Origin: an uncultured Bacteroidota bacterium | GTDB lineage: Bacteria > Bacteroidota > Bacteroidia > Chitinophagales > Chitinophagaceae | NCBI GenBank assembly: GCA_903903635.1 | Contig: CAIUZK010000083.1 | Span: 1-64,000, forward strand | Direction: 5' to 3' | Length of the DNA: 64,000 bases | Shown: positions 32,660 to 52,169 of the stretch, piece by piece | Position numbering within the stretch: position 1 is the stretch's first letter | Layout: each line of letters starts with the position of its first letter | Position numbers and translations under genes: made by a program | Notes under the pieces: generated by a model | Told to the model about the DNA's origin: nothing | The model's input: the letters and a program-made list of their open reading frames with translations, nothing else | The model's database searches: none

Positions 32660-33661
32660 TTATGACAATAACTCTATTATTCTCGTGTTTGTTTCCTGAT
32701 CACCAATAGTGATCCGAAGAGCCAACTCCTGGCCGAAAACCTTGAGGTCGCAAATAATTATCCTGTTGCTTAATAAAATATCGTAGACCTTTACTTTTTC
32801 CGCATCCGTATCAAACCACAGGTAAATGAAATTAGACTGGGTAGCTATTGTATTGTAACCCATACGCCTGAATTCAGTTTCCAGGTATTTGCGCTGTATG
32901 TCATTCCGGCCTGCCGAATCGTCGATAAACCTGGTATCTTCCAAAGCGCAAGAGGCCGCATGGTAAGACAGATAATTCAGTGAAAAGGGTATCTGGCAAT
33001 GGGTAAGTTCTGCCGCAATATCATTCTCAGCAATCGCAAAGCCAATGCGCAGACCTGCAAGTCCATATATTTTAGAGAAGGAATGAAGGATCACCAGGTT
33101 AGAATGCCTGGCCTGCAAATTGACAGAATTAGGGAATGAAGGATCCGTTACATATTCGGCGTAAGCCTCATCAATAACCACTACTATCCGTTCGGGCACA
33201 GATTCCAGGAAAGCCTGCAACTGGGCATGAGTAATAATAGTACCGGTCGGGTTATTGGGATTGGCAATAAATATCAACTTTGTCTTGTCATTAATATAGG
33301 ACATCAGGTTTACCGGATCACAGGAAAGATCGGCCAGCGGTGCGAAGTGACAACTGTGGTTATGGATATGAGACAACTGTCCGTAGGCAATAAAACTATT
33401 CTCAAAAGTAAGCACCTCTTCTCCATTACCTACAAACGACAGAATCAGGTTATTAATAATTCCAACCGAGCCCGCGCCCAATACTATATTCCTTGACCGG
33501 ACACCATACTTTTGCGCCAACTGTTCTTTAAGCGCATGCGGATGCAACTCTGGATATAAATGGGCATCCTGATAATTCAGGAGAATGGCATCCCTGGCCA
33601 TTTGCGAACAGCCATAGCAGTTCTCGTTCGAAGACAATTTTGTCATTTTAAGTCCGGTCAT
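32660..33661 (-). CDS. HisC-like class I/II aminotransferase (probable aromatic amino acid aminotransferase)
   Basis: This 333-residue PLP-dependent aminotransferase has NPNNPTG at 134-140, DEAYAEY at 164-170 and SFSKIYGLAGLRIG with Schiff-base Lys197. It resembles histidinol-phosphate aminotransferases, a group that includes enzymes acting on aromatic amino acids. No histidine biosynthesis gene is nearby. It is the last gene of the catabolic cluster, overlapping the Mo-hydroxylase FAD subunit by 4 nt, so the inferred role is to convert tryptophan (or Phe/Tyr/His) to the 2-oxo acid used by IorAB. It is slightly shorter than typical HisC (~350). Confidence 0.82.
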   Translation of the reverse strand: MTGLKMTKLSSNENCYGCSQMARDAILLNYQDAHLYPELHPHALKEQLAQKYGVRSRNIVLGAGSVGIINNLILSFVGNGEEVLTFENSFIAYGQLSHIHNHSCHFAPLADLSCDPVNLMSYINDKTKLIFIANPNNPTGTIITHAQLQAFLESVPERIVVVIDEAYAEYVTDPSFPNSVNLQARHSNLVILHSFSKIYGLAGLRIGFAIAENDIAAELTHCQIPFSLNYLSYHAASCALEDTRFIDDSAGRNDIQRKYLETEFRRMGYNTIATQSNFIYLWFDTDAEKVKVYDILLSNRIIICDLKVFGQELALRITIGDQETNTRIIELLS

Positions 33662-34527
33662 TCAAAAATGCTTTTGCTTATGTTGAACAAGACTTCCTTT
33701 CTGTACCATGCCGTTGCACGGATATCTGTAATAGGTGAAGCATACGACAAAACCGTTGCCGCAAACTCTTCTTTTTCCTTCCTGGTTATTTTCTTAAATG
33801 TTTTACCAATCAATGAGCTACATGCATCCTTTGCCAAACGGATGGTGGGCGCCGAAGCCCCAATGGCAACCCCGGCGGCAAGTATTACACCCTTTGCATC
33901 TGTCTGTATATGGCAGGCAAGCGAAACCACGGAGCACTCCATAGAACGGCGCGTACCTATCTTTATAAACCTGGAATAAATCTTTGCTGTTTCCTTATTA
34001 TTCAATGGCACTGAAATACCATAGAGTACTTCGTTAGATTTTAATACCGTCTTCCTGGGGCCTGTAAAAAAATCGGTCACTGCCACACTCCTGCTTTTGC
34101 CATTGGTATTAAGCATTTCACACCTCGCGCCCAGCGCCACAAGGGCACAGGCAATATCTCCCGATGGCGATGCTGTACAAAGATTACCACCTACAGTAGC
34201 CACCTGCCTTATCTGCGTTGATGCCAGATTGTGTGCCGATTCATGCAGTACCGGAAAATGTGTCTTCAATTCATCATTTACTACAATACGCCCTGCTGTA
34301 AACATAGAACCCAGCCTGTATAACTTTGATGTTTTAGTCAGGTTGGTAAGCCGGTCATCAACCACCTGTGCCAGGTTTATGACCGTAAGATCATCCGCCG
34401 GATTTTTCTTTAGTTCCATCAGCAGGTCGGTGCAGCCGGCGCCAAACCTAAAATGCCTGTTCTGACACTTTTCTATAGCAACCAGCAATTCGTCTGTTGT
34501 AGTCGGGCTAATTATTTCAAAGTTCAT
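33658..34527 (-). CDS. Molybdenum hydroxylase FAD subunit (CoxM/HcrB-like)
   Basis: This 289-residue middle subunit of a xanthine-dehydrogenase-family enzyme carries FAD between the 2Fe-2S subunit and the acceptor. FAD-binding elements are RFGAGCTDLL (27-36) and ATVGGNLCTASPSGD (~109-123, the TIGGN motif with Val for Ile); a CO-dehydrogenase-flavoprotein C-terminal domain follows. There is no extra 4Fe-4S loop of the kind seen in 4-hydroxybenzoyl-CoA reductase beta subunits, which argues for hydroxylation rather than reductive dehydroxylation. It starts 9 nt after the large-subunit stop. Confidence 0.9.
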   Translation of the reverse strand: MNFEIISPTTTDELLVAIEKCQNRHFRFGAGCTDLLMELKKNPADDLTVINLAQVVDDRLTNLTKTSKLYRLGSMFTAGRIVVNDELKTHFPVLHESAHNLASTQIRQVATVGGNLCTASPSGDIACALVALGARCEMLNTNGKSRSVAVTDFFTGPRKTVLKSNEVLYGISVPLNNKETAKIYSRFIKIGTRRSMECSVVSLACHIQTDAKGVILAAGVAIGASAPTIRLAKDACSSLIGKTFKKITRKEKEEFAATVLSYASPITDIRATAWYRKEVLFNISKSIFE

Positions 34528-34536
34528 ACACTAACC

Positions 34537-36843
34537 TTATTTTTTTCTTTTCTTCTTGTCATCAAGCGCTTTCAAAACCTTCTCGGGTGTAATGGGTAAT
34601 TCCAGCATTTCCAGGCCCAATGCATTGCATACAGCATTGGCTATTGCGGCGGCGGTTGGTATCAGTGGCGCCTCGCCTACTCCTTTAGCGCCATAGGGAC
34701 CTTCTTTATCATGAGTCTCAACCGGATAAAAATGAATCTCCGGCGTATCGGAAGCTGTGAGCATTTTATAATTATGGAAATTAGGATTGAGTATCCTGCC
34801 CTCATGCATCAACAATTCTTCAGACAGAGCATAACCCACTCCCTGCATAATTCCCCCTTCTATCTGGCCGCCCAGTAAAAGCGGGTTAAGCACCTTACCT
34901 ACATCCTGCGCTACATATATATCAAGTACCTGCACATTGCCTGTATAAGTATCTACTTCCACCTCGATAGACTGCGCTGCAAAAGCATAGGTTCCTGAAA
35001 CGTTTCCCTTAAATTCCTTATCCTGAAACTTACTGGAAGGCTCGTAAAAGAAGGATGCTATTGCAAGTTCATTAGGTTCGGAAAAATGCATTTCGCGCAC
35101 CACTTTATCCAATGCGATCCGTTCACCGGATTTACCAGATATCAGTTTATTATCAGCATATTCAAAATCAGCGTCCTTTATATTCAGCAGTTGGGCGGCC
35201 TTGCTATTCAGTTTCTCTTTCAACAACCGGATCGCGCCAAGCAATGAATTACCCGCCACAAAACTGGTACGCGATGCATGAACACCTACGTCCCAGGGTT
35301 TAACATCGGTATCGGTATTAATTACTTTGATCTTCTTCAGTTCTATTCCAAGTTCCTCAGCGGCCATCATGGCCAACACAGTTTCAGAACCCTGACCTAT
35401 CTCATTTGAACCGGTAATGATAGTACAATATCCATAAGGGTCTATCTTAAGAGTAGTACCGCATCCATCAGACCTGTATATTTTGGCGCCTCCTCCTACA
35501 TGCAACATAGAAGCCAGCCCTATTCCCCGCTTATAGCGATCGTTTTTACCGGAAGTCTTGTGGTTAAAGTAATTACTTTTTTCAATCACTGTTTCCAGGC
35601 ATTCTTTATGACCGCAGGTATCATAATGCAAGCCCTGACCGGTAATTTCACCTTTTTCATTTGCATTCAGCAACCTGATCCCGGCCTTGTCCATTCCCAG
35701 TTCATCAGCCAGCAGATCTATAACCCGCTCCAATGCAAAGGTTGCCTGCGGATTACCATACCCCCTGAATGACCCGGCAAATACATTATTGGTATACACA
35801 GCCATTGCATTAAAACTGCACGCCTTCACTTTATAAAGCGAAGAAAAAGACTGCATGATAACAAACGGAGTAGTGGCTCCCCATGAAGTATAGGCGCCGT
35901 TATCCTTTATAATATTTATCTCGCGAAAAGTAAAATGCCCGTCTTTGTCCACACCTGCAGTCAGGTCTATAATCATAGGCTGCCTGATGGGAGATGCGAT
36001 AAACTCTTCTTCCCTTGAGTAGATGATCTGTACCGGCCGGCCTGTCTTCATGGATAACAGCGCACAGATAGGCTCGAAAGGATGCATATCGAGCTTACTG
36101 CCAAAACCACCGCCAATAACAGGCTGTATAACCCGGATATCAGAAGGATTGATCTTAAGCGCATGCGCCATATCGCGCTGATATAAAAAAGGCACCTGGG
36201 TTGAGCTATAAAGCAGCAGCTTTTTATCCAGATTATTATAACTGGCAGTAATGTTGCTGGTAGCCATGCAGGCATGAGTCATCCGGGGAAGTGTAAACCG
36301 GCGGGATATGATATGCCTGCTCCTCTTTTTTTCCTCCTCCAGGTTGCCATGCCCGTACTGGAATTTCTCGGCAATATTTTTGTTCTCGAATTTACCAGTT
36401 ATAAACTGGTTGATCTGAGGCGCGCTATCTTCAAGGGCTTCAAATGCATCGTAAACACCTTTGCGAACTTTGTATTTTACCTTAATCAGCTTCAGCGCCT
36501 GCCTGGCAATTGCTTTTGTTTCAGCAGCCACTGCCGCCAATTCATCACGTGTGCAGCAGGCCTCTCCTTTCTTCAGTATCGGATGATCGCGCTTATACCC
36601 TATATTGTTGACATCCACATCATCTGCCGTAATTACACACACCACACCAGGCAGTTTCAACGCTTCAGATACGTCAATTGATTCAATAATGGCAGATGGA
36701 TGTTCGGTGCGCAAAATAGCGCCGTACAACATACCAGGCAACACAATATCGTGACCGTAAATAGCTTTACCTGATGCCCGTATATTGGCATCCTGCTTCG
36801 GGATAGGCTGTCCAATGACCTTTAATTCCTTTTTCATCTGCAA
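34537..36843 (-). CDS. Molybdenum hydroxylase large subunit (xanthine dehydrogenase family)
   Basis: This 768-residue subunit binds molybdopterin (MoCo) and the substrate. Seen motifs: GGGFGSK (MoCo contact), FRGYGNPQATFALE, EIGQGSETVLAMMA and GAKGVGEAPL near 718-727, where Glu724 is the expected catalytic base that activates the Mo-OH. Such enzymes hydroxylate a heteroaromatic ring with water and pass two electrons via 2Fe-2S clusters to FAD. In this cluster the likely substrate is the indole ring C2 of indoleacetate or its CoA ester, giving the 2-oxo (oxindole) form. It overlaps the small-subunit stop by 10 nt. Confidence 0.92.
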   Translation of the reverse strand: MQMKKELKVIGQPIPKQDANIRASGKAIYGHDIVLPGMLYGAILRTEHPSAIIESIDVSEALKLPGVVCVITADDVDVNNIGYKRDHPILKKGEACCTRDELAAVAAETKAIARQALKLIKVKYKVRKGVYDAFEALEDSAPQINQFITGKFENKNIAEKFQYGHGNLEEEKKRSRHIISRRFTLPRMTHACMATSNITASYNNLDKKLLLYSSTQVPFLYQRDMAHALKINPSDIRVIQPVIGGGFGSKLDMHPFEPICALLSMKTGRPVQIIYSREEEFIASPIRQPMIIDLTAGVDKDGHFTFREINIIKDNGAYTSWGATTPFVIMQSFSSLYKVKACSFNAMAVYTNNVFAGSFRGYGNPQATFALERVIDLLADELGMDKAGIRLLNANEKGEITGQGLHYDTCGHKECLETVIEKSNYFNHKTSGKNDRYKRGIGLASMLHVGGGAKIYRSDGCGTTLKIDPYGYCTIITGSNEIGQGSETVLAMMAAEELGIELKKIKVINTDTDVKPWDVGVHASRTSFVAGNSLLGAIRLLKEKLNSKAAQLLNIKDADFEYADNKLISGKSGERIALDKVVREMHFSEPNELAIASFFYEPSSKFQDKEFKGNVSGTYAFAAQSIEVEVDTYTGNVQVLDIYVAQDVGKVLNPLLLGGQIEGGIMQGVGYALSEELLMHEGRILNPNFHNYKMLTASDTPEIHFYPVETHDKEGPYGAKGVGEAPLIPTAAAIANAVCNALGLEMLELPITPEKVLKALDDKKKRKK

Positions 36844-37373
36844 TCTTCTTTTGCGAATAACTTTTCTGCTGCATCAATAATCTTAACATAACCTGTACAC
36901 CGGCACAAATTTCCTTCGAGGTACTTTTTAATTTCATCTCTCGATGGCAATTCTGTTCTTATATCACCGGGAACATGCTGCCCTGTTTCATACAGGTCAA
37001 CCATCGATTTAATTGCCATTGCCATACCCGAAGTACAAAACCCGCACTGCACAGCGCCGCTTTGCACCAGTGAATCCTGCACCGGATGGAGTGTACCGTC
37101 ATGACCAATCAAACCTTCGATGGTTTCTATTTGTTTACCATTTGCATTTATCGCCAGGTAGAGGCAGGAATTAACCGGCGCCCCATTTACCAGTACCGTG
37201 CATGCCCCGCACTCCCCTTCATTACAGCCCGACTTTGTTCCTTTGAGATCAAAGACATCCCGGATAAGATCAAGTAAGACAGTAGCACCTTTTATTTTGC
37301 ACGTAACTTTTTTCCCATTCAGGGTAAAAGTCACCTCATGCAATGTTTCTTTCTTAATAGAATTCTTTTTCAT
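36834..37373 (-). CDS. Molybdenum hydroxylase 2Fe-2S subunit
   Basis: This 179-residue small subunit has two 2Fe-2S clusters: plant-type ferredoxin Cys50, Cys55, Cys58 and Cys70 (CNEGECGACTV), and the helical-domain cluster Cys110, Cys113, Cys157 and Cys159 (QCGFCTSGM, CRCTGY). All ligands are present. It carries electrons from the Mo site to FAD. The three genes are in the order small - large - FAD, with IorB 8 nt upstream. Confidence 0.95.
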   Translation of the reverse strand: MKKNSIKKETLHEVTFTLNGKKVTCKIKGATVLLDLIRDVFDLKGTKSGCNEGECGACTVLVNGAPVNSCLYLAINANGKQIETIEGLIGHDGTLHPVQDSLVQSGAVQCGFCTSGMAMAIKSMVDLYETGQHVPGDIRTELPSRDEIKKYLEGNLCRCTGYVKIIDAAEKLFAKEDCR

Positions 37374-37381
37374 AAACCTGT

Positions 37382-37978
37382 TTATGCCGGTTGCCCGTTC
37401 ATTTCAAATGCAACACCCAATTGAAATGCCATTAGTGATTTTTCTTTATAATAACCTGTTACTACATTATTTATAGCCTCCTCCAGAATTCCGGCACCGA
37501 ATGGAAAATCTTTCATTCTTGTCGCTCTTCCAAGGAGGAAAATATTGTACAGAACAGAATTGATGCTTTCCGGAAATTGATTGATAAAAACAACTTCCCT
37601 GCATTGTTGCTCCAGATATTTTCCGAATAGCCCAACATCGGGATAGGCAGCCATCTGAGCATTAACAGAATAGGGCTGCACCCTGTAATTGCCAAAAATA
37701 ACGCTGCTGTTGTTATGCAGATAGGGCAGGCATCTTTGTGTTTCCAGTGGTTCCAGCCCTATAAGCAGATCAACTCCGGCCAAGCCGATAAAACCCGTGC
37801 AGTTGGTTCCGAGACCTATACCGGAAGTTACCACCCCACCCCGCTGAGAAAGCCCATGAATCTCACTGACGCTTACTGGAACATCAGATAGCATAGCCGC
37901 CTCAACAATAATATTTGTGAGATAAACTATTCCCTGCCCGCCTACACCAGCTACCAGTATTTTCATGTTTCTGTTCAT
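37382..37978 (-). CDS. iorB: Indolepyruvate:ferredoxin oxidoreductase beta subunit IorB
   Basis: This 198-residue gamma-type domain of 2-oxoacid:acceptor oxidoreductases has the opening GVGGQGIVYLTNIIVEAA and SEIHGLSQRGGVV (~38-50), typical of IorB. With IorA it oxidatively decarboxylates aryl-pyruvates (indolepyruvate, phenylpyruvate, 4-hydroxyphenylpyruvate) to the arylacetyl-CoA, reducing ferredoxin. Its ATG overlaps the iorA stop by 4 nt, supporting a stoichiometric complex. Confidence 0.9.
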   Translation of the reverse strand: MNRNMKILVAGVGGQGIVYLTNIIVEAAMLSDVPVSVSEIHGLSQRGGVVTSGIGLGTNCTGFIGLAGVDLLIGLEPLETQRCLPYLHNNSSVIFGNYRVQPYSVNAQMAAYPDVGLFGKYLEQQCREVVFINQFPESINSVLYNIFLLGRATRMKDFPFGAGILEEAINNVVTGYYKEKSLMAFQLGVAFEMNGQPA

Positions 37979-40900
37979 ATTGCTGTTACCGGTTCTAATT
38001 CATTTTCATAAACCCATTTAATTGCTTTGTTCGGGCATACATCTATACACAATCCGCACTGGGTGCAACGGTTCATATCTATCTGTACTTTGCCGTCTAC
38101 CTTTACCATTGCCGGGCATCCGAAATTATCAATGCAGTGATTACACTTACGACAGGATTGAAACAAATTATACTGCTCTATTTCCTGCCTGATATTATTG
38201 TCAATAATTGTTTCTCTCAACTTAATCGATGGCATCGGGTTGCGGTTCAACCTGTCAAGAGCGAAATCTCCTTCATAGTCAAATTTGTAACCCTCCAGCA
38301 ATTTCCTCACGCCAATTGCGGCCTTCTTCCCGGATGCAATAGCGCCAATAACACTCATATTGTTGCCGGCGCAAATATCTCCAGCCGCAAAAACGTTTTT
38401 ATACCCGGAGTAATTATTATCGGTATTAATCCTTAAGCTATCATCTTTACTGAGTTGTTCGGCAATACCTGATTCAGCAGTCTGACCAATTGCCGTAATA
38501 ATATGGTCGCAGTGAATGTCCTTCAGCAATACTTTTGATTCAAAAGAATTGATTGAAGCAACAATTCTATTTTCAGAAAACATACAGGCGCCTACAAAAC
38601 TGCTGCAATTGAATTCAATCCCCTCTGCCCTTGCATGCATTACTTCTTCAGCAAAAGCCGGCATTGATCCTTCCTCTTCAATACAGGTAACGATTACGGT
38701 ATTATCCGGACACAATCGTTTTGCCGACCGGGCCGCATCAATAGCGCTGTTTCCTCCTCCTATAACAAGGACAACATCGCCATCATTCAGCTTCTTTTCA
38801 CCTTCATTAAACGATTTCAGAAACGCAAGTGCATCGCTTCTTCTGTTGGCCGGAATATTGCGGTCAATAAGGTTGAGGGTCTTAGCCTTATTCGTACCTA
38901 TAGCCAGGATCACAGAATCATAATCATTTGACAACTGATCCAGGGTAAGATCTTTGCCTAAAGCGGCATTAAAATGAAACTGAACTCCCATTTGCTCCAG
39001 TTGCATGGCTTCAAAGTCATACCCTGCCTTATCCATTCTGAACTCAGGTATAGCAAATGTCACCATTCCTCCTGCCTTATGCTCTTTTTCAAATACAGTC
39101 ACGGAATATCCATTCTGAACAAGATCATAAGCAGCGCTTAAGCCCGCCGGACCTGCCCCAACAATTGCCACAGACTTATTTTTCTTTACAGAATCCAGCG
39201 CCCTCTTTATAGGAATAGAAAAATCCCTGAAATTTTCATCAACTGAAGAAACCATGTGTTTCAGTTTCTTTATTGGCACTACATTGGTGTTGTTGGCAAA
39301 AAGCTCGCAGGGCCTGTGGCAAACATCTCCGCAAGTCCTGGCAAAAAGCATTTTGTCTCTCACTATCTCTATCGCCGCCTTATAATCTCCTTCCAGTATA
39401 GAATTAAAGAAACCATGATTACAGATATTTGCCGGACATAACTCTTCATTGCCCGGAACAGAAACATCGGCTATCAACCTGGCCCGCGCCCTCGACAAAT
39501 TGTTCTTAGGAGCATAACACCGGGAACAGCTCAGATCTATATCCTCATGATTGGCGCAGGAATTGCATAATGACGGATCAACCGCAATTTTTTTGTTTCG
39601 TGCCTTATGATCAGAAAGATCGGGCAGAAAAATACAGGGAGCCCTGGAAACAATGACGGATACACCATTGAACAACAGGCCACTGTTTACCTTATCGAAA
39701 CTCTCCCTGATATTGTAGGGGTTAATAGTTTCAACAAACTCTATACCTAACCCCCGCAATAAATTCGGGAGGTCAATTTCATGATATTTTGAGGCACGTG
39801 AAGCGCCCGGATGAGACTGGTGGCCGGTCATGCCAATAGTACGGTTATCAAATATGATAACGAGAATATTGGCCCTGGTATAAACTGCATTGACAAGCGA
39901 GGTAAGCCCGCTATGAAAAAATGTTCCATCGCCCAGTAATGCCACTACTTTTTTACTTTTTCCAGAGTCATTAAATGACTCATACAAGCCCTGCGCCATG
40001 GAGATACTCATACCCATATGATTGATTGTATCAATCATTCTGAGCGGAGGTAAAGCTCCCAACCCAAAACAGCCTATATCGCCACACATTATCAGCTCGC
40101 TTTGCTCTCTTGGTATGGCAAGCTTCAATAAATAAAAAGTAGCGCGATGAGGGCAACCAGCACACAAAGTAGGTGGCCGGGGAGGCAACTTATCAAGGAA
40201 TTGACTCGTGTTGGTAAGAGGCAAACGTTCTGTCTTCCGGAGTACGGATCCGGTAAAATCTTCGAATACTTTTGTCAACAGATCGATTGAAAATTCACCT
40301 GTGCTGACTAATTCAGAGAAACCTTTACCATAGATATCTACCTGAATATTGTTCTGCTGGGAAATAACCCTTACTGCATTTTCAATAATAGGATCCAGTT
40401 CTTCCAGTATCAATACTTTTTTGAAACCCCGTTTCAGAAAAGCAATAACCTCCTGCTCCGGGAAAGGATGGATTAAACCGAGATCGATCAGTGTGATATG
40501 GTCTGCACAAGCCGAACCGGACAACAACTCGATTGCATAGGTAGTAGAAACGCCGCTACTGATAATCCCCAATTCAGGAGCATCACTTTGCATTACTATC
40601 CTGCTGTTTAGAGCTAAATACGACAATACATTTTCCGATTTCAGCTTATCCAGCAAACGCCTGTGCGCAGTGGCTGTGCGCGCCGGTATGTTGATATGCT
40701 CGGGCAAACGGTCGAACGCAGCCTCATGATTTTCTGCATTAATTGCACCATAAGTCACTACACCACGTGTATGCGATACCCTGGTGGTAGTGCGCACAAT
40801 GACCGGCAATTTTATTTTACCCGATAATACGAATGCCTCTTTGATCATCACAAAGGCATCGGCAGGGGTTGCAGGATTGAACACCGGCACAGAAGCCATA

Positions 40901-41361
40901 GGCCCCCAATACCTTGAATCCTGCTCATTGGAACTGGAATGACATCCCGGATCATCGCAAACCACAATCACCAATGGCGCAATTATGGTTTGGTAAGTCA
41001 CAGACATCAAAGGATCGCAGGCCACATTCATCCCCACATTTTTCATTACGCACATGCTGCTCCTGTTGCCGATAGAATAGGCTATTGCCTTCTCCAAGGC
41101 GATCTTCTCATTGATACTAAACTCAAAATATATATTATGCCTGGTGAGTTCAGGATATTGCTCAATGTTTGCCTGCTGTGATTGAAAACTATTTACATGA
41201 TTGAATATTTCTGAAATCTCGGTGGAAGGAGTACCCGGATAGGCAAACACACCATCTACACCAGCCTCTATTGCAGCGCGTGCAATACCTTCATTGCCCA
41301 TCACACAGGTTTTGTGCGGTGCAGCATGTGGTGTCAATATTTTTATGGTGCGCTCTTTCAT
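37975..41361 (-). CDS. iorA: IorA with an inserted GltD-like NAD(P)H:ferredoxin-type module (1128 residues)
   Basis: Residues 1-~590 are IorA: MGNEGIARAAIEAGVDGVFAYPGTPSTE opening (20-48), LCAGCPHRATF (399-409), and the TPP site GDIGCFG...GDGTFFHSG (427-485). Residues ~595-1030 are a glutamate-synthase-small-subunit-like module: a Cys-rich N-part (Cys599, 602, 612, 615, 642, 647, 677, 681, 685), FAD motif GAGPAG at 735-740, NAD(P) motif GGGNSA at 868-873, and AAGDICAG near 992-999. Residues ~1066-1128 are the usual IorA C-terminal 2x[4Fe-4S] domain (Cys1070/1073/1076/1082 and 1099/1102/1105/1109). Canonical IorA is ~600 residues, so an electron-transfer module is inserted between catalytic core and ferredoxin tail. 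It could pass electrons from aryl-pyruvate oxidation directly to NAD(P)+. It lies 1 nt from the CoA-transferase gene. Confidence 0.93.
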   Translation of the reverse strand: MKERTIKILTPHAAPHKTCVMGNEGIARAAIEAGVDGVFAYPGTPSTEISEIFNHVNSFQSQQANIEQYPELTRHNIYFEFSINEKIALEKAIAYSIGNRSSMCVMKNVGMNVACDPLMSVTYQTIIAPLVIVVCDDPGCHSSSNEQDSRYWGPMASVPVFNPATPADAFVMIKEAFVLSGKIKLPVIVRTTTRVSHTRGVVTYGAINAENHEAAFDRLPEHINIPARTATAHRRLLDKLKSENVLSYLALNSRIVMQSDAPELGIISSGVSTTYAIELLSGSACADHITLIDLGLIHPFPEQEVIAFLKRGFKKVLILEELDPIIENAVRVISQQNNIQVDIYGKGFSELVSTGEFSIDLLTKVFEDFTGSVLRKTERLPLTNTSQFLDKLPPRPPTLCAGCPHRATFYLLKLAIPREQSELIMCGDIGCFGLGALPPLRMIDTINHMGMSISMAQGLYESFNDSGKSKKVVALLGDGTFFHSGLTSLVNAVYTRANILVIIFDNRTIGMTGHQSHPGASRASKYHEIDLPNLLRGLGIEFVETINPYNIRESFDKVNSGLLFNGVSVIVSRAPCIFLPDLSDHKARNKKIAVDPSLCNSCANHEDIDLSCSRCYAPKNNLSRARARLIADVSVPGNEELCPANICNHGFFNSILEGDYKAAIEIVRDKMLFARTCGDVCHRPCELFANNTNVVPIKKLKHMVSSVDENFRDFSIPIKRALDSVKKNKSVAIVGAGPAGLSAAYDLVQNGYSVTVFEKEHKAGGMVTFAIPEFRMDKAGYDFEAMQLEQMGVQFHFNAALGKDLTLDQLSNDYDSVILAIGTNKAKTLNLIDRNIPANRRSDALAFLKSFNEGEKKLNDGDVVLVIGGGNSAIDAARSAKRLCPDNTVIVTCIEEEGSMPAFAEEVMHARAEGIEFNCSSFVGACMFSENRIVASINSFESKVLLKDIHCDHIITAIGQTAESGIAEQLSKDDSLRINTDNNYSGYKNVFAAGDICAGNNMSVIGAIASGKKAAIGVRKLLEGYKFDYEGDFALDRLNRNPMPSIKLRETIIDNNIRQEIEQYNLFQSCRKCNHCIDNFGCPAMVKVDGKVQIDMNRCTQCGLCIDVCPNKAIKWVYENELEPVTAI

Positions 41362-41362
41362 C

Positions 41363-42577
41363 CTATATCAGGTTGTCTTTTTCCAGGTTGATAATTTCTT
41401 CGGTTGTATATCCGGCCTCAGCAAAAACAGTTTTATTATGAGCGCCCAGATGAGGGGCGCATTCCAGCACATTATTATTCGCTTTTAAATAGGCAGTTTC
41501 ATGAGAAGACGGAAACAATGGCACTACCCTGCCATCAGGCATTTTTGCTTTCACCATCTCATCCGACACTATATCCATTGCCGCTACCTCCCTGATGGAA
41601 TTAACCGGCGAAACAGAAAGATTTATGCTCAGGCATAAATCCGAAAATGCTTTGGTAGTATAGTTTATGGTCAGCGCTCCAATCTCCCTGTAAATATTTT
41701 CTTTGTCATCCATCCTTCCCTGGTTGGTTTTTCGGGCGGGCCTGGCCAGACTTTCAAAACCGGGCAAACCGGCAAACTTCGCCCATTGCGAATCATTGCC
41801 TATTGCGAGGTATACCATTCCGTCAATAGTTGGATAAACATTGCAGGGAATAAAGCTACGGTGCTCATTGCCACTGCGTTTAAACAACTCATTATCACTT
41901 TTCACAAACTGCAACTGGGGAAGGGCTGTTATCAGCCAGCTTGCCGCACATTGAGCCATAGAGATGTGTATTTCTTTGCCTATTCCGGTGTTGTTCCTTT
42001 CCAGCAAGGCCAGCACTACCTGGGTAAAAGCTTCATCGCCTGCTTTAAGATCAATGATAGGAATACCGCATGGCACAGGTTTACCTTCCGGTTCGCCGGT
42101 AAGGTAGGTGTAGCCCATCAATGCCTGCAATGCCGGGTCGTAGCCTGCCCTATCGGGATGCGCGGGGCCCATAGCCGAAATGCTACACCATATTATGGAG
42201 GGGTTGGCCGTTTTCAAAGTTTCGTAATCAATACCCAATTGCTTGTACCGCTTGGGTAATGTATTGCACAAAAAAACATCGACCTTCAATTCCTTAATTA
42301 CTTTGCACAGTAATTCCCGGCCTTCCGGTTTTTTCAAATTGATTGTTATGGCTTCCTTCCCCAGATTCGGGGCTATGTAATAAGAATGCAGGTCATGATA
42401 ACCAAGATCGGCTCCGATATATCGGTTAGGATCTCCCGCATTGCCTCCACCCTCTTCCGCCGGTGTCTCCAGACGAATGACGCGCCAACCCTGGTGAACC
42501 ATGCGCTCGGTAGCGAAGGGCAGCGCCAGGGCCTGCTCTAATGACAAAACAGTAATTTGCTTAGCTGTCATGCACAA
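41363..42577 (-). CDS. CaiB/BaiF family (class III) CoA-transferase
   Basis: This 404-residue class III CoA-transferase has YDPALQALMGYTYLTG, and GIPIIDLKAGDEAF, whose Asp is the expected nucleophile forming the acyl anhydride. Such enzymes move CoA between carboxylates without free intermediates. In the indoleacetate cluster of Aromatoleum a class III transferase acts on (2-aminophenyl)succinate; by position next to the mutase, the same role is inferred here. MCMTAK offers two close start codons. It lies 39 nt after the mutase and 1 nt before iorA. Confidence 0.88.
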   Translation of the reverse strand: MCMTAKQITVLSLEQALALPFATERMVHQGWRVIRLETPAEEGGGNAGDPNRYIGADLGYHDLHSYYIAPNLGKEAITINLKKPEGRELLCKVIKELKVDVFLCNTLPKRYKQLGIDYETLKTANPSIIWCSISAMGPAHPDRAGYDPALQALMGYTYLTGEPEGKPVPCGIPIIDLKAGDEAFTQVVLALLERNNTGIGKEIHISMAQCAASWLITALPQLQFVKSDNELFKRSGNEHRSFIPCNVYPTIDGMVYLAIGNDSQWAKFAGLPGFESLARPARKTNQGRMDDKENIYREIGALTINYTTKAFSDLCLSINLSVSPVNSIREVAAMDIVSDEMVKAKMPDGRVVPLFPSSHETAYLKANNNVLECAPHLGAHNKTVFAEAGYTTEEIINLEKDNLI

Positions 42578-42616: not shown

Positions 42617-44239
42617 CTAAAAGAATATCGGCTCATCATATTCCCCATATACTTCTTTCAGCACGCCGATGATCTCACCTACCGTTGCATATTCCTTCAC
42701 TGCGGCAATAATGGAAGGCATGAGATTCACATTTTTCTCAGCATCATCCTTTACAATTGCCAGCAATTGTTTCACCAGTTCATTGTTCCTTTCAGCACGC
42801 TTCTTCTTTAATTTCTTTACCTGGTTATTGGCAGCTTCTATATTGTAAGGATGAAATTCAACAGTGCGTTTTTCCTCTTCCTTTTTGTAGCAGTTAACAC
42901 CCACCTTCAGAATGTTGCCATCCTGCATTGCCTTTTCCCTTTCATAAGCCTGCCGCGATACTGCCTCCTGCACCCTGCCTGTAGCCACACCTTCAATTAT
43001 TCCGCCAAGCGCATCCACTTTTGCCATTTCACTCTTAATGGCAGCCTCCATTTCATTTGTCAATGTCTCTACATAATAAGAGCCGCCCAAAGGATCTACA
43101 GTATCACATACACCCATTTCATTAATCATGATCTGCATGGTACGTAAAGCTATTTCAGCCGACTTTTCAGTTGGAATAGTAAAGGCTTCATCATAGGAGC
43201 ATAGCGCCATAGTTTGTGTACCTGATAATGCACTTATGAGCGCATAGTATGCTGAGCGCACAATATTATTTTCGGGTTGTTCCTTGGTTAGCCCTGCACC
43301 TCCGCCTCCGGCTATCATACGCATCCAGCAAGATTCCTCTTTCTTAGTCTGGTATTCTTCACGCATTATTTTGGCCCACAACCTTCTGCCCGCTCTGAAC
43401 TTGGCAATCTGTTCAAATAAATTGCCGTAAATATCGAAATTGAAGGATAGGCGGGAAGCAAATTCATCAATATCAATATTACGTTTCATTGTTTCGTCTG
43501 AATAGGCCTTTGCAATACAAAATGCATAAGCCATTTCCTGCACAGGATTAGCTCCCGATTCGCGTATATGGTATCCGCAAACACTCACAGGTGAGTATTT
43601 AGGCACATTTTTAGCGCAATATTCAATAGTGTCTACAACCAGCTTCACCGATTTGTCAACAGGAAAAATCCAGGTACCTCTGCCGATAAACTCTTTCAGA
43701 ATATCATTCTGGGCGGTACCACGAAGGCTGCTCAGATCATATCCTCTTTTTTCTGCCAGTGCGAAATACATCGCCATCAATACTATTGCAGAACCATTTA
43801 TAGTAAGTGAAACGGTGATCTTATCCAGGTCTATTCCATTAAAGGCGATCTCAAAATCCTCCAGTGTATCAATGGCCATACCTACCCTGCCAACTTCACC
43901 CAACGCTCTGGGGTCGTCTGAATCAAGACCACATTGTGTAGAAAGATCGAATGCAACATTTAAGCCGTTTTGCCCGTTCTTAATAAGAAAATTAAAACGC
44001 TCATTTGTCTCTTCAGGCGAAGCGAAACCTGCGTACTGGCGTATAGTAAACGGACGTTTACGATACATCAGCGGATGAATACCCCTTGTGAAAGGATATT
44101 GACCCGGCAATTCTTCCTTAAAGCCTGGCAGAATTTTATACTCATCCTGAAAAGTATATAAAGGTTTTACTTCCAGGCCCGATTCCAGGTATACCTTTTT
44201 AATTTCTTCCTTTTTACTGACAGTAGTTTTAGTTTCCAT
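42617..44239 (-). CDS. B12-dependent acyl-CoA mutase, catalytic subunit (methylmalonyl-CoA mutase-like)
   Basis: This 540-residue TIM-barrel subunit belongs to a split mutase. RQYAGF contains Tyr69 and KEFIGRGTW contains Arg187, equivalent to the Tyr/Arg pair that binds the free carboxylate of methylmalonyl-/succinyl-CoA; isobutyryl-CoA mutases have Phe/Gln and 2-hydroxyisobutyryl-CoA mutases Ile/Gln. The substrate is therefore a dicarboxylic acyl-CoA. GYHIRESGA carries the conserved active-site His. In this context it may interconvert (2-aminophenyl)succinyl-CoA and (2-aminobenzyl)malonyl-CoA rather than act in propionate metabolism. The B12-binding subunit is encoded 2 nt upstream. Confidence 0.9.
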   Translation of the reverse strand: METKTTVSKKEEIKKVYLESGLEVKPLYTFQDEYKILPGFKEELPGQYPFTRGIHPLMYRKRPFTIRQYAGFASPEETNERFNFLIKNGQNGLNVAFDLSTQCGLDSDDPRALGEVGRVGMAIDTLEDFEIAFNGIDLDKITVSLTINGSAIVLMAMYFALAEKRGYDLSSLRGTAQNDILKEFIGRGTWIFPVDKSVKLVVDTIEYCAKNVPKYSPVSVCGYHIRESGANPVQEMAYAFCIAKAYSDETMKRNIDIDEFASRLSFNFDIYGNLFEQIAKFRAGRRLWAKIMREEYQTKKEESCWMRMIAGGGGAGLTKEQPENNIVRSAYYALISALSGTQTMALCSYDEAFTIPTEKSAEIALRTMQIMINEMGVCDTVDPLGGSYYVETLTNEMEAAIKSEMAKVDALGGIIEGVATGRVQEAVSRQAYEREKAMQDGNILKVGVNCYKKEEEKRTVEFHPYNIEAANNQVKKLKKKRAERNNELVKQLLAIVKDDAEKNVNLMPSIIAAVKEYATVGEIIGVLKEVYGEYDEPIFF

Positions 44240-44241
44240 CC

Positions 44242-44625
44242 TCAGTTTTGCGATTTGAAATTGCTGATATAATTCACTACGGTATCAATCTGTGTTCCGG
44301 TAGGGAAAGCCTCCATTGTACCTGTTTTACGAAGCGCCTCCACATCATCTGCCGGTATATTGCCACCCACTATCCAGGGAATGGAGATATTCAGCCGCTG
44401 CATTTCTTCCTGCAGTTTTTCGCAAAGAATCTGATGAGTTCCTGATAAAATTGACAACCCGATTACATCCGGCTTTTCTGCAGTCGCCTGGCGAACAATT
44501 TCCTCTACCGATTTTCTCAAACCGGTATAGACTACATTGTGCCCGGCTTCCTTAAGCGCGTGTGCCAGCACTTTTACGCCCACATCATGCCCATCAAGTC
44601 CCGGTTTTGCTAATAGTACTTTCAT
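44242..44625 (-). CDS. B12-binding subunit of the acyl-CoA mutase
   Basis: This 127-residue cobalamin-binding domain has DGHDVGVKVL at 11-20 (DXHXXG; His13 is the lower axial cobalt ligand), GLSILSGTH (SXL region) and VGGNIPADD (GG motif). It pairs with the 540-residue catalytic subunit, as in archaeal methylmalonyl-CoA mutases and in isobutyryl-/hydroxyisobutyryl-CoA mutases. No MeaB-type chaperone gene is present in the window. Confidence 0.95.
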   Translation of the reverse strand: MKVLLAKPGLDGHDVGVKVLAHALKEAGHNVVYTGLRKSVEEIVRQATAEKPDVIGLSILSGTHQILCEKLQEEMQRLNISIPWIVGGNIPADDVEALRKTGTMEAFPTGTQIDTVVNYISNFKSQN

Positions 44626-44688: not shown

Positions 44689-45243
44689 TCAGTTCAGTAC
44701 ATGCACGGCATGTACTATCTCCTTACCTCTGGCAATTGCTTTTTCATTTTCAGGAATCAGATTATGCCTGCGAAGCGGCAGAGATTTTTCAAGTCCCTTG
44801 TGTATGTATTCAGCATCTATCAAAGGTTTTATGCTCAGATAACCACCCAAAACGAACATGTTGAAAATCTTTGCGAGCCCCAATTTAGAGGCTTCATCAG
44901 AAGCTTCAATGGTGTAAATGTTGATATCGGTTCTCACCGGATGACGCACAATTCCATTTGGATCATAGATAAGCAGCCCGCCTTCCTTAACCGAGTTTTC
45001 AAATTTATCCATCGACTGCTGATTCAGTATAATGGCTGTGTCAAACTTATTTAATATAGGAGAACTTATGCGCTCATCACTGATGATAACAGTTACATTG
45101 GCTGTACCACCGCGCATTTCCGGACCATAAGAAGGGAACCAGCTAACCTCTTTATTTTGCATCATGCCTGAATAAGCAAGAATCTTCCCCATTGATAACA
45201 CCCCCTGACCACCAAATCCAGCTATTATTATTTCTTCGGTCAT
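44689..45243 (-). CDS. 2-oxoacid:ferredoxin oxidoreductase gamma subunit
   Basis: This 184-residue gamma domain opens MTEEIIIAGFGGQGVLSMGKIL and has SWFPSYGPEMRGGTANVTV (~35-53), the hallmark of KorC/VorC/PorG subunits. It contributes to CoA binding in the heteromeric enzyme. It is the last gene of the four-gene oxidoreductase set and precedes the B12-subunit gene by 63 nt. Confidence 0.92.
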   Translation of the reverse strand: MTEEIIIAGFGGQGVLSMGKILAYSGMMQNKEVSWFPSYGPEMRGGTANVTVIISDERISSPILNKFDTAIILNQQSMDKFENSVKEGGLLIYDPNGIVRHPVRTDINIYTIEASDEASKLGLAKIFNMFVLGGYLSIKPLIDAEYIHKGLEKSLPLRRHNLIPENEKAIARGKEIVHAVHVLN

Positions 45244-45300
45244 ACTTTTAATATTTTTTGGTAATTCAATTATTTTCTAACAATCCTTTTAATTACAGCC

Positions 45301-46080
45301 TTATGGTTTAGGAACCTTAATATCACCAAGCGGATAAACAGGGAACATATTTTCTTCCATCCATTTATTAGATTCCAGCGGTGTCATTTTCCATCCCGAA
45401 TTACAATTGGAAACTATTTCTACAAAACACAAGCCCTTTTTCAGCTTCTGATACTGTACAGCTTTTTCTATTGCCTTCTTTGCTTTGCGAACATTGGCAG
45501 GAGTATGCACCGACTGACGGGTTACATAATAGGTGCCGGGAAGCATTGCGAGCAGCTCGGTTATTTTCAATGGATAACCCATTGTAGTAACATCACGGCC
45601 AAAAGGAGAAGTAGCCGTTTTCATACCGGGCAAAGTAGTAGGCGCCATTTGCCCGCCTGTCATTCCGTAAATTCCGTTATTCACAAAAAAGATAGTAATA
45701 TTCTCTCCCCTGTTGCATGCGTGCAGTGTTTCACCTGTACCTATCGCGGCAAGGTCGCCATCTCCCTGGTAGGTAAACACGAATTTATCAGGATAAAGCC
45801 TTTTAATACCGGTAGCCACGGCAGGGGCACGGCCATGAGCTGCCTGCTGCATATCAATATCCATAAAGTCATATGCAAGCACTGAACATCCTACCGGTGC
45901 AACACCAATAGTATCTGCCTGCAAATTCATCTCTTCAATAACTTCCATAATCAACCGGTGGGCTGTACCATGCCCGCAACCCGGACAATAAGAAAGCGCA
46001 GCATCGGTCAATAAACAGGTCCGGTGATAAACTTCGTTCTCCGGTACACATATCTCTTCTCTAGTAAGTAGCTGGCTCAT
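45301..46080 (-). CDS. 2-oxoacid:ferredoxin oxidoreductase beta (TPP-binding) subunit
   Basis: This 259-residue subunit has SYCPGCGHGTAHRL (Cys32, Cys35, 4Fe-4S ligands), the TPP motif GDGDLAAIGTGE and NNGIYGMTGGQMAPTT. It holds thiamine pyrophosphate and one cluster for oxidative decarboxylation of a 2-oxo acid to acyl-CoA. It overlaps the alpha subunit gene by 20 nt. Confidence 0.94.
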   Translation of the reverse strand: MSQLLTREEICVPENEVYHRTCLLTDAALSYCPGCGHGTAHRLIMEVIEEMNLQADTIGVAPVGCSVLAYDFMDIDMQQAAHGRAPAVATGIKRLYPDKFVFTYQGDGDLAAIGTGETLHACNRGENITIFFVNNGIYGMTGGQMAPTTLPGMKTATSPFGRDVTTMGYPLKITELLAMLPGTYYVTRQSVHTPANVRKAKKAIEKAVQYQKLKKGLCFVEIVSNCNSGWKMTPLESNKWMEENMFPVYPLGDIKVPKP

Positions 46081-47176
46081 ATTGTTTCTCTTTTTTTGAA
46101 TGAATAAAATTTTGTTCTAGTACATGCAATACTTCATCAGGCGCAGGTATTATGCCACCAAGACGACCGTAATGTTCAACCGGCACAACGCCATTTACAG
46201 ACAGCCTTACGTCTTCAACCATTTGCCCTGCACTCATTTCTATTGCCTGCATTCCCTTTACCTGTTTGGCGAGTCTTGCCAGTTCATCTACAGGGAACGG
46301 GAATAATGTAATTGGGCGCAACAGTCCTACTTTTAAACCTTTTGCCCTGCCCAGCAACACCGCTTTCTGGCATACACGGGCGCTTGAGCCATACGCAACA
46401 AATAAATATTCAGCATCATCACACATAAACCTTTCAAAACGGACTTCAGTCTGTTCAATATGTCTGAATTTCTTCTGAAGATTCTGGTTGATAATTTCCT
46501 GTTTCACCGGATTCAGATCAAGTGATGTAATAATATTCCTGGGCCTGTCGGGAGTTTTACCTGTTGTCGCCCATGGATATTTCTTCACGATTTCAGCATC
46601 TGTCAGCCTTGGCAACTGATCATCAAGTTCTACCTTTTCCATCATCTGGCCAATAGCGCCATCAGATAAAACCATTACCTGTATACGGTGCTTGAACGCC
46701 AATTCAAATCCAAGTTTTGCAAAATCATACATTTCCTGAACAGATGCCGGAGCAAGGACGATCATTTTATAATCGCCATGACCTCCACCCTTCACTGCCT
46801 GAAAATAGTCGGACTGTGATGGCTGAATAGTACCCAAACCAGGGCCACCCCTTACCACGTTCAGCAACAGACAGGGAAGTTCGGTGCCTGCCATAAATGA
46901 AATTCCCTCCTGCATAAGACTGATGCCGGGACTGGATGAAGAAGTCATTACGCGCTTACCTGCCGCAGCTCCACCATATACCATATGTATCGATGCAATT
47001 TCGCTCTCAGCCTGCAATACCACCATACCGGTTCTTTCTTCAGGATTGTTAGCCATCAAATATTCCAGCACTTCCGACTGAGGAGTAATAGGATAACCAA
47101 AATAGCCATCGCAGCCGGCCCTGATTACGCCTTCAGCAATTGCCTCGTTACCTTTCATTAATCTGATATCCTTCAT
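46061..47176 (-). CDS. vorB: 2-oxoacid:ferredoxin oxidoreductase alpha subunit, VorB-type
   Basis: This 371-residue subunit has GNEAIAEGVIRAGCDGYFGYPITPQSE, the SSSSPGISLMQEGISF segment and YGRLGGIIPAPDEV near the end, which is typical of VorB (2-ketoisovalerate type) rather than pyruvate enzymes. The subunit set delta/alpha/beta/gamma (74, 371, 259 and 184 residues) is complete. Natural substrates may be branched-chain or aryl 2-oxo acids or 2-oxoglutarate; sequence alone does not decide. In aromatic degraders such enzymes also regenerate reduced ferredoxin. Confidence 0.88.
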   Translation of the reverse strand: MKDIRLMKGNEAIAEGVIRAGCDGYFGYPITPQSEVLEYLMANNPEERTGMVVLQAESEIASIHMVYGGAAAGKRVMTSSSSPGISLMQEGISFMAGTELPCLLLNVVRGGPGLGTIQPSQSDYFQAVKGGGHGDYKMIVLAPASVQEMYDFAKLGFELAFKHRIQVMVLSDGAIGQMMEKVELDDQLPRLTDAEIVKKYPWATTGKTPDRPRNIITSLDLNPVKQEIINQNLQKKFRHIEQTEVRFERFMCDDAEYLFVAYGSSARVCQKAVLLGRAKGLKVGLLRPITLFPFPVDELARLAKQVKGMQAIEMSAGQMVEDVRLSVNGVVPVEHYGRLGGIIPAPDEVLHVLEQNFIHSKKEKQYEPATY

Positions 47177-47206
47177 TGTATTTTATTTTAAGAATTTACT
47201 GTTTTT

Positions 47207-47241
47207 GCAAAGAACCGGTATCTCGGGAAATCCGGCTTTGC
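47207..47241 (-). other. Hairpin in the leader of vorB
   Basis: GCAAAG-AA-CCGG (47207-47218) pairs with CCGGCTTTGC (47232-47241), a stem of 4+6 bp with a 2-nt bulge. T8 follows on the plus strand (47247-47254), so it would terminate plus-strand transcription; on the minus strand it lies 30 nt before the vorB start in an otherwise unexplained 152-nt gap after the ferredoxin gene. It could be a processing site or leader structure. Confidence 0.4.
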
Positions 47242-47328
47242 GAACGTTTTTTTTGAAATTATTAGTTTAATTCAACTTGCCTGCGGGTCAATGCCAGAGC
47301 ATTATTTCAGGCCTTATCCACCTTGAGA

Positions 47329-47553
47329 TCAATCCAATTTCACCCGATAAACCGTAATGGCTCCATCCGGACAAACCAGAGCGCAGTTAGTGCAACCGTT
47401 ACAATCCTCATTTATACTTGTAGCATAATGATAACCCTTGCTATTCAGCCCACCTGACATTTCAATTGTTTTTTCTTTGCAAATCGGGACACACAATTCA
47501 CAGCCTTTGCACCTCTCGGTATTGACCACTATTTCCCCTTTAACTTTAGCCAT
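47329..47553 (-). CDS. 2x[4Fe-4S] ferredoxin / delta subunit of the 2-oxoacid oxidoreductase
   Basis: This 74-residue protein has two complete 4Fe-4S motifs: Cys15, 18, 21, 25 and Cys51, 54, 57, 61 (CKGCELCVPIC and CNGCTNCALVC). It is the electron-carrying delta subunit of KorDABC/VorDABC-type enzymes and the first gene of the second minus-strand run. The only promoter hint upstream is TCAATTTG at 47582-47589 (7 of 8 to the -7 consensus). Confidence 0.92.
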   Translation of the reverse strand: MAKVKGEIVVNTERCKGCELCVPICKEKTIEMSGGLNSKGYHYATSINEDCNGCTNCALVCPDGAITVYRVKLD

Positions 47554-47841
47554 ATATTATATATTTTAATTGTTTTTCAGACAAATTGAAGATCGTTTTT
47601 AAAGAACATCCTGATCCCGCAAGATCTGCCGGAGATTTACTCTTTTCAGCCGGGGAACAAGGTGATCCCATGCCAGCAAATAGGATGTTACTTTGCCCAA
47701 ATCCAGTTGCGGTATTTTGGGCAAAACAGATATTTAAAAAGCCATACACCATATCTCAAACAAATCTATCTTTATCGTAGCTCAGAATTTATGATTATGG
47801 TCATTATACAAGAAAAAAAGATTTCTTAGATTTGTATTCAT
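47554..47841. other. Divergent intergenic region between the ferredoxin and CWC genes
   Basis: These 288 nt should contain the control region of the second catabolic run (minus) and of the small plus-strand gene. A 64-codon plus-strand frame is present but has no recognisable features. Confidence 0.5.
47827..47834 (+). promoter_or_regulatory. Bacteroidota -7 element TAGATTTG
   Basis: This is an exact TANNTTTG match ending 7 nt before the ATG of the small Cys-rich gene, giving a nearly leaderless mRNA. Confidence 0.45.
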
Positions 47842-52168: not shown

Positions 52169-52169
52169 G

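Follow-up and report, generated by a model that had tools for sequence, protein, structure and literature searches.

The locus described here raises the question of what kind of enzyme results when a flavin- and NAD-binding module of the GltD type lies inside the alpha subunit of an indolepyruvate oxidoreductase (IorA). The gene concerned is an open reading frame (ORF) of 1128 amino acids (aa) on the minus strand (37975–41361), starting with ATG and without internal stops, in a 64,000-nucleotide stretch (the window) of contig CAIUZK010000083.1 from an uncultured Bacteroidota bacterium (GCA_903903635.1). Its single frame encodes the core of IorA, then an FAD/NAD module resembling GltD and, last, a ferredoxin tail of the IorA type. 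With moderate confidence we read the fusion, together with the separately encoded IorB, as an NAD+-linked, CoA-acylating indolepyruvate oxidoreductase that feeds tryptophan into a pathway of the anaerobic indoleacetate (iaa) type, with substrate, acceptor, cluster number, electron path and the role of each neighbouring gene all inferred. Features of the window given below lie on the minus strand unless stated otherwise.

Domain order and distribution of the fusion

The domain order had been proposed from the sequence alone (the sequence-only reading), and Pfam and NCBIfam profile searches confirm it. The IorA core (aa 1-598; 39568–41361), a thiamine diphosphate (TPP)-dependent 2-oxoacid oxidoreductase, falls in a match to TIGR03336 (IOR_alpha) which covers aa 17-614 with profile positions 2-566 and scores 581 bits, below the curated equivalog cut-off of 650.9 bits; none of 395 genomes of the phylum reached this cut-off, which thus also shuts out the tail-less IorA proteins of the Bacteroidota. 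Within the core lie a TPP_enzyme_C domain (aa 428-562) and a GDG...DN stretch (aa 477-506; 39844–39933) that we take to be the TPP-binding motif. The GltD-like module (aa 638-1030; 38272–39450) consists of a probable Fer4_20-type Fe-S part (aa 638-706; 24.9 bits, just below the Pfam cut-off of 25.8) and FAD/NAD Rossmann domains (Pyr_redox_2, aa 730-1011; 84.7 bits, cut-off 26.1), while the GltD-like family NF009410/PRK12771 matches aa 628-1117 with 279 bits (cut-off 516). The FAD motif GAGPAG (aa 735-740; 39142–39159) and the NAD motif GGGNSA (aa 868-873; 38743–38760) are found in the alignment exactly where the sequence-only reading had placed them. The chain ends in an IorA-type 2x[4Fe-4S] ferredoxin tail (aa 1064-1121; 37999–38172), with a Fer4 match at aa 1092-1115. 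Both the core and the ferredoxin tail of IorA are therefore represented in the fusion (TIGR03336 profile positions 2-566 and 536-595), but they are not contiguous, as aa ~630-1050 lie between them.

A scan of genome contigs yielded 46 fusion loci. In 38 of these the fusion is a single ORF of >1050 aa (L037, cut at the contig start, among them), in six it runs into a contig end (L038, L065 and L067-L070), and in two (L060 and L066) it is spread over two frames. The 38 ORFs were aligned with that of the window to give 39 rows of 1095-1171 aa, the other 38 being 53-74% identical to the window protein. The titles of 43 of the 46 loci name Bacteroidota or subgroups thereof, the others being Ignavibacteriales, KSB1 and Competibacteraceae, the last of which is doubtful: the record titled Candidatus Competibacteraceae BA4 (G453, locus L072) appears to be a Bacteroidota genome, and its reading as Pseudomonadota was dropped because its own phylum sample contained genome G616, which is the Bacteroidota genome G218, since contig C23 of G616 is identical to a contig of G218 and G218 belongs to the phylum of the window.

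A search of the class found the fusion in 22/395 genomes (including that of the window) and 15/197 genera; among these carriers one has the gene split over two contigs, one has it cut at a contig end and two have one in-frame TAA. Three of 60 relatives (own genome included) carry the fusion, and in the TIGR03336 search of the 395 phylum genomes a fusion-length frame occurred, among the matches listed, only in the window's own genome. In a plasmid collection 346 records match the fusion, none covering 80% of it. An erroneous joining of two genes during assembly, which had been named as an outcome that would overturn the earlier proposal, can be rejected because the full-length fusion recurs in other assemblies, with 38 homologues of >1050 aa and 22 carriers in the class.

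Position of the module within IorA

A plain end-to-end fusion of IorA with a GltD-ferredoxin protein of the PRK12771 type was worth testing, because NF009410 spans aa 628-1117 and stand-alone PRK12771-type proteins own a ferredoxin tail. We rejected this origin since the tail best matches IorA and the tails of three stand-alone PRK12771-type proteins differ from it. When the tail was searched alone (aa 1050-1128), TIGR03336 was the top match of 113 NCBIfam families (profile positions 536-595 of 595, E 3.7e-12), and NF009410 was not among the best 25 of these 113. In four further fused genomes TIGR03336 is split likewise within the same ORF, with profile positions 2/6-556/567 followed separately by 542/550-595. 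The upstream junction (aa 594-641; 39439–39582) holds a remnant of the start of the IorA ferredoxin, namely the piece VDPSLCNSC (aa 594-602), which aligns with that start and owing to which profile positions 536-566 are matched twice; its residues C599, C602 and C612 are invariant in 39/39 rows. The IorA of Monoglobus also matches the fusion twice, with its core up to aa 608 and with its residues 550-607 at aa 1064-1121 (46.6% identity). Judging from the best match of the tail to IorA, the split profile and the ferredoxin-start remnant upstream, the module seems to have been inserted and part of the IorA tail duplicated, in line with the sequence-only reading, which had the module inserted within IorA and not appended to it.

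The same reading had called the tail ordinary, which holds insofar as it is of the IorA type, but not for the phylum: all 29 Bacteroidota IorA proteins read are 530-564 aa long and lack CxxCxxC motifs altogether, and for these a tail as an ordinary feature was rejected. One other genome of the phylum, G218, does have the tail, albeit in another architecture, inside an IorA-IorB fusion. This 846-aa IorA-ferredoxin-IorB protein (L152, 2275–4812) is encoded next to a molybdenum hydroxylase Fe-S subunit. In an unrooted tree of 17 of the 39 fusion rows, 16 of the 29 Bacteroidota IorA proteins and five others, the fusion cores group apart from tail-less IorA with a support of 100/100; the Monoglobus and 846-aa rows are long-branched and their placement is unsure.

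Cofactor sites, predicted fold and proposed electron path

The residues expected at the cofactor sites are fully conserved in the 39 rows, i.e. G477, D478, D505 and N506 of the presumed TPP motif, G735, G737, P738 and G740 of the FAD motif, and G868-G870, N871 and A873 of the NAD motif. The same is true for eight cysteines in the tail (1070, 1073, 1076, 1082, 1099, 1102, 1105 and 1109) and eight in the junction and the front of the module (599, 602, 612, 642, 647, 677, 681 and 685), a total of 16 that could hold four [4Fe-4S] clusters. The second Rossmann strand ends with C-[ILVF]-E in all 39 rows, in place of the Y-R-R of three aligned relatives in the Protein Data Bank (PDB). Arg-Arg after this strand binds the phosphate of NADPH, and the replacement of Arg by E895 (38677–38679) points to NAD+ rather than NADP+ as the acceptor.

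A structure model built from the 39 sequences (pLDDT 77.4, pTM 0.56) has a core of the pyruvate:ferredoxin oxidoreductase (PFOR) type, with aa 14-582 matching PFOR 7plm (Z 32.2, 529 residues aligned, 5.1 Å), and aa 597-1075 matching the Nfn-ABC structure 9bov (Z 31.6, 414 residues aligned, 3.0 Å, 31% identity). The module has a GltD-type fold, with Z-scores from 31.6 to 25.2 against chains of Nfn, GltD and dihydropyrimidine dehydrogenase (DPD; Z 27.6); these comparisons held no separate test of the tail.

On this anatomy, the fusion and IorB would convert indolepyruvate, CoA and NAD+ to indoleacetyl-CoA, CO2 and NADH. Thiamine diphosphate in the IorA core would oxidise the 2-oxoacid, and single electrons would pass to the two clusters of the tail, then to another pair in the leading part of the GltD-like module and on to FAD, which would reduce NAD+ by hydride transfer. 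We propose that this wiring is that of DPD in reverse; in DPD the clusters of a GltD-like part and of a C-terminal 2x[4Fe-4S] domain line up as a four-cluster chain (PMC8097209).

The sequence-only reading had offered two functions for such a chain, a self-contained aryl-pyruvate:NAD(P)+ oxidoreductase and a unit for electron bifurcation or confurcation. An NAD+-linked enzyme fits the anatomy, but a self-contained one does not, as IorB is a separate gene. For bifurcation, the FAD of the module would have to act as the bifurcating flavin as in Nfn; yet neither NAD+ nor ferredoxin should require bifurcation to be reduced by a 2-oxoacid donor. While Nfn-type proteins are the closest folds of the module, the chain has a single flavin module, no domain of the NfnA or NuoF type was found in it or among the cluster proteins scanned, and the GltD fold is common to glutamate synthase and DPD (PMC8097209), so that flavin-based bifurcation or confurcation appears very improbable.

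The gene cluster and its likeness to the indoleacetate pathway

The strongest clue to the substrate is the surrounding pathway, which the sequence-only reading had missed. The fusion belongs to a cluster that reads, from 57988 down to 32660, 3-hydroxyacyl-CoA dehydrogenase/enoyl-CoA hydratase fusion, HyuA, HyuB, RidA, acyl-CoA dehydrogenase, HMG-CoA-synthase-like/OB-fold protein, thiolase, a Vor-type set, the small and large mutase subunits, class III CoA-transferase, the fusion, IorB, three molybdenum hydroxylase subunits and a HisC-like aminotransferase. Neighbours were counted over the 46 loci, and these counts are lower bounds, as many of the loci stop short at a contig end or at the limit of the flank retrieved.

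IorB (37382–37978; PF01558, NF005323; gamma domain) shares 4 bases with the fusion and is present in 42/46 loci. It is followed by the Fe-S (36834–37373; 39/46), large molybdenum (34537–36843; 40/46) and FAD (33658–34527; 36/46) subunits of the hydroxylase, all assigned by Pfam and NCBIfam, and by the aminotransferase (32660–33661; 31/46), which scores 282 bits with TIGR01141 (cut-off 276.6). On the other side lie the class III CoA-transferase (41363–42577; PF02515; 38/46), with a putative IaaL-like role, and the B12 mutase, the large subunit of which (42617–44239; PF01642; 37/46) may have a role like that of IaaGH, with its B12-binding small subunit (44242–44625; PF02310; 32/46). Further upstream are a thiolase above the NF004810 cut-off that is also weakly BbsB-like (48079–49266; 23/46), the weakly BbsA-like HMG-CoA-synthase-like/OB-fold protein (49263–50627; 21/46), an acyl-CoA dehydrogenase (50624–51751; 21/46) and a RidA-family protein (51767–52213; 13/46). 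The set is completed by a lactam hydrolase of the hydantoinase/caprolactamase type (52170–55968; HyuB at 52170–53852 in 7/46 and HyuA at 53839–55968 in 1/46 loci, most loci ending short of this position) and by the fusion of 3-hydroxyacyl-CoA dehydrogenase and enoyl-CoA hydratase (55970–57988; 3/46, all weak).

This cluster looks like the anaerobic indoleacetate (iaa) pathway and could serve to break down tryptophan independently of oxygen. The idea was drawn from the first half of the cluster, and the second half then showed the lactam hydrolase, the enoyl-CoA hydratase/hydroxyacyl-CoA dehydrogenase fusion, the thiolase and the acyl-CoA dehydrogenase; together with the CoA-transferase, B12 mutase and molybdenum hydroxylase, all but the last-named of that second half match iaa-type components at family level. 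The acyl-CoA dehydrogenase is matched more closely, as a benzylmalonyl-CoA dehydrogenase of the IaaF type: IaaF enzymes have GGG instead of YEG (PMC8360864), and GGG is found in the window protein and in all 22 sequences read (window included). Elsewhere, L118 has GGG, whereas seven that were read from ten loci at ≤43% identity show GEG (six) or YEG (one). An IaaF homologue of at least 85% identity occurs in the same three of the 60 relatives as the fusion (own genome included), the next best being 41% identical, although these genomes are related and this is not an independent statistic.

In the pathway so read, the aminotransferase would convert tryptophan to indolepyruvate upstream of the fusion and IorB, the molybdenum hydroxylase and lactam hydrolase would open the indole ring, and the CoA-transferase, B12 mutase, IaaF-type dehydrogenase and beta-oxidation would then yield 2-aminobenzoyl-CoA. 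Aromatoleum enters the pathway via the indoleacetate-CoA ligase IaaB (PMC8360864). Direct formation of indoleacetyl-CoA would dispense with this ATP-costing step, and tblastn with two Selenomonas ligases (of locus L103) found no CoA ligase in the window cluster or the 46 loci; as a control, the ligase of L105 was found by one L103 query at 5e-99 and by the other at 3e-5. A search for ligases by sequence motif was dropped as insensitive, as it recovered one of three annotated ligases in two control loci.

The same enzyme could have another natural 2-oxoacid, i.e. phenylpyruvate, hydroxyphenylpyruvate or imidazolepyruvate. Enzymes of the IorA type have been linked to phenylpyruvate and to arylpyruvates generally (PMC5109826), no motif predicting the use of indolepyruvate was found in PMC13290082, and the aminotransferase of the cluster is HisC-like. 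We nevertheless consider this unlikely, as the molybdenum hydroxylase, lactam hydrolase, CoA-transferase, B12 mutase and GGG-type dehydrogenase would suit an indole and not a phenyl ring. The aminotransferase is also the sole match above the HisC cut-off in the whole genome, and the organism may lack a dedicated HisC for histidine synthesis or may have replaced it.

Several observations weigh against an NAD+-linked indolepyruvate oxidoreductase in an iaa-type pathway. With regard to the acceptor, the choice between NAD+ and NADP+ depends on a single site; the title of 9bov, a Y-R-R relative, names NAD as a ligand, perhaps at another site; and the stand-alone PRK12771-type proteins vary at this site, with Y-R-R in L107 but not in L010 and L108 (three read). 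The structure model is of moderate quality, with pLDDT falling below 50 ahead of the tail and in some of the TPP region. With regard to the pathway, the mutase, CoA-transferase and molybdenum hydroxylase were assigned, and likened to those of Aromatoleum, at family level, and the aminotransferase, as the only HisC above cut-off, may also, or only, serve histidine synthesis. A FadD-type acyl-CoA ligase is encoded at 25258–26889, on the opposite strand and outside the cluster, and a ligase could also be encoded past the ends of the 46 loci, many of which cover little sequence. Finally, G616/G218 has an IaaF homologue (69% identity; L119), the mutase and HyuB on one contig, yet has the IorA-ferredoxin-IorB fusion without a GltD part; the pathway therefore need not use the NAD module, and the fusion of G616/G218 may represent another domain arrangement serving it.

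Possible link to benzoyl-CoA reductase

The genome of the window also contains genes for the reduction of benzoyl-CoA, with BcrB (683 bits), BcrC (439), BcrD (321), Had (452) and Oah (591) above their curated cut-offs, and BcrA (443 bits) below its cut-off of 578. With these Bcr, Had and Oah genes, the organism could pass 2-aminobenzoyl-CoA on to a ferredoxin-dependent reductase. Homologues also adjoin the fusion cluster in nine of the 46 loci (Had in seven, a 419-aa thiolase in six, Oah in three and BcrC in one; L043, L045, L048, L052, L055, L056, L057, L065 and L066), and through these neighbours the fusion cluster is linked to benzoyl-CoA degradation. Four matches to the COX1 family in the genome suggest that a respiratory chain is present.

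These findings bear on a second way of using the electrons, in which the fusion would be a dual-acceptor unit. The GltD part would serve NAD+ and the tail, as a putative docking site, soluble ferredoxin, so that oxidation of indolepyruvate, or else NADH plus indolepyruvate, would keep ferredoxin reduced for the ATP-dependent benzoyl-CoA reductase of the organism. Besides the Bcr, Had and Oah genes of the genome and the neighbours in nine loci, such a role is supported by the presence of BcrB in all three fusion carriers among the 60 relatives, and by G616/G218, where BzdO and BzdQ, both above cut-off, and a ferredoxin-like ORF are neighbours of a stand-alone GltD-like gene of family NF009410. 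Ferredoxin feeds benzoyl-CoA reductase, being supplied by KorAB in Thauera, while an Nfn-type AadN has been proposed in R. palustris (PMC9973337). However, BcrB is above cut-off in nine of the 60 relatives and six of these lack the fusion (two of them only 78-82% complete), the motif CxxCxxCxxxC was not found in the Bcr stretch L138, and the ferredoxin-like frame of the window (47332–47556) adjoins the Vor genes. We therefore hold the dual-acceptor unit as a tentative alternative, clearly behind the NAD+-linked enzyme. Somewhat more doubtful still is the full picture that would follow, in which a single-chain arylpyruvate oxidoreductase splits the electrons of tryptophan-derived indolepyruvate between the two acceptors and thereby drives a benzoyl-CoA-type ring reduction of the same molecule, as part of an undescribed Bacteroidota route from tryptophan to ring cleavage without an oxygenase or an indoleacetate-CoA ligase.

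The Vor genes in question encode a 2-oxoacid oxidoreductase (gamma, beta and alpha; NCBIfam) between the thiolase and the mutase (44689–47556) and are found in 5-6 of the 46 loci; the frame beside them encodes a 75-aa 2x[4Fe-4S]-like ferredoxin. Stand-alone PRK12771-type proteins were seen in other settings as well: in L107 and L108 the GltD-ferredoxin gene lies directly upstream of a nifJ PFOR gene, followed by a dihydroorotate dehydrogenase-like gene, and in L111 directly upstream of a NifJ-like ORF (named by reading), an arrangement that is possibly an NAD(P)-linked PFOR unit. The GltD-like module is thus paired in several ways with 2-oxoacid oxidoreductases and with benzoyl-CoA reductase, and this variety therefore keeps the ferredoxin-sharing alternative alive.

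Comparison with known systems

With the IorAB enzymes (TIGR03336/TIGR03334) the fusion has in common the IorA core, the TPP site, the ferredoxin tail and a separate, adjoining IorB, and it differs by the GltD-like module of ~390 residues between core and tail. The PRK12771-type proteins beside nifJ PFOR or benzoyl-CoA reductase belong to the same NF009410 family as the module, but are encoded by stand-alone genes, and the ferredoxin tails in L107, L108 and L111 differ from the IorA-type tail of the fusion. DPD, which shares the GltD-like and 2x[4Fe-4S] parts, has another catalytic domain and another domain order, and receives its electrons from NADPH.

The iaa operon of Aromatoleum aromaticum has in common with the cluster an IaaF with the GGG motif and the CoA-transferase and B12 mutase roles (PMC8360864). 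It differs in the entry, which is by the ligase IaaB in A. aromaticum, whereas the window cluster has an aminotransferase, the IorA-GltD fusion and IorB, with no ligase found. The iaa gene list of Ebenau-Jehle (2012) reportedly also contains a molybdenum hydroxylase, a hydantoinase, an enoyl-CoA hydratase/hydroxyacyl-CoA dehydrogenase fusion and a thiolase. In the open-access literature searched we found neither an IorA-GltD fusion nor this Bacteroidota cluster described; the cluster is conserved in mostly uncultured members of the phylum that probably degrade tryptophan via the indoleacetate route. G616/G218, with its IorA-ferredoxin-IorB protein and a separate GltD-like protein by benzoyl-CoA reductase, and the fusion described here are directly comparable, and are maybe two solutions to one electron problem.

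Precedents exist for NAD(P)-linked 2-oxoacid oxidoreductases that have a GltD-like subunit. Both the NADH-dependent phenylglyoxylate dehydrogenase PadEFGHI and the NADP+-linked 2-oxoglutarate oxidoreductase of Azoarcus evansii are said to use a GltD-like flavoprotein and to be tied to anaerobic aromatic degradation; there the flavoprotein is reportedly a separate subunit, whereas in the fusion it lies inside the IorA chain. Since 2-oxoacid:ferredoxin oxidoreductases linked to pyridine nucleotides through GltD-like subunits exist, the fusion is a variation on the theme of pyridine-nucleotide linkage in this enzyme class. It offers a testable case of a ferredoxin-type 2-oxoacid oxidoreductase probably made NAD+-linked through the insertion of a ready-made electron module. 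The pyruvate:NADP+ oxidoreductase of the Euglena type likewise fuses a 2-oxoacid:ferredoxin oxidoreductase to a flavin module, but that module is of another type, related to P450 reductase, and stands at the end of the chain.

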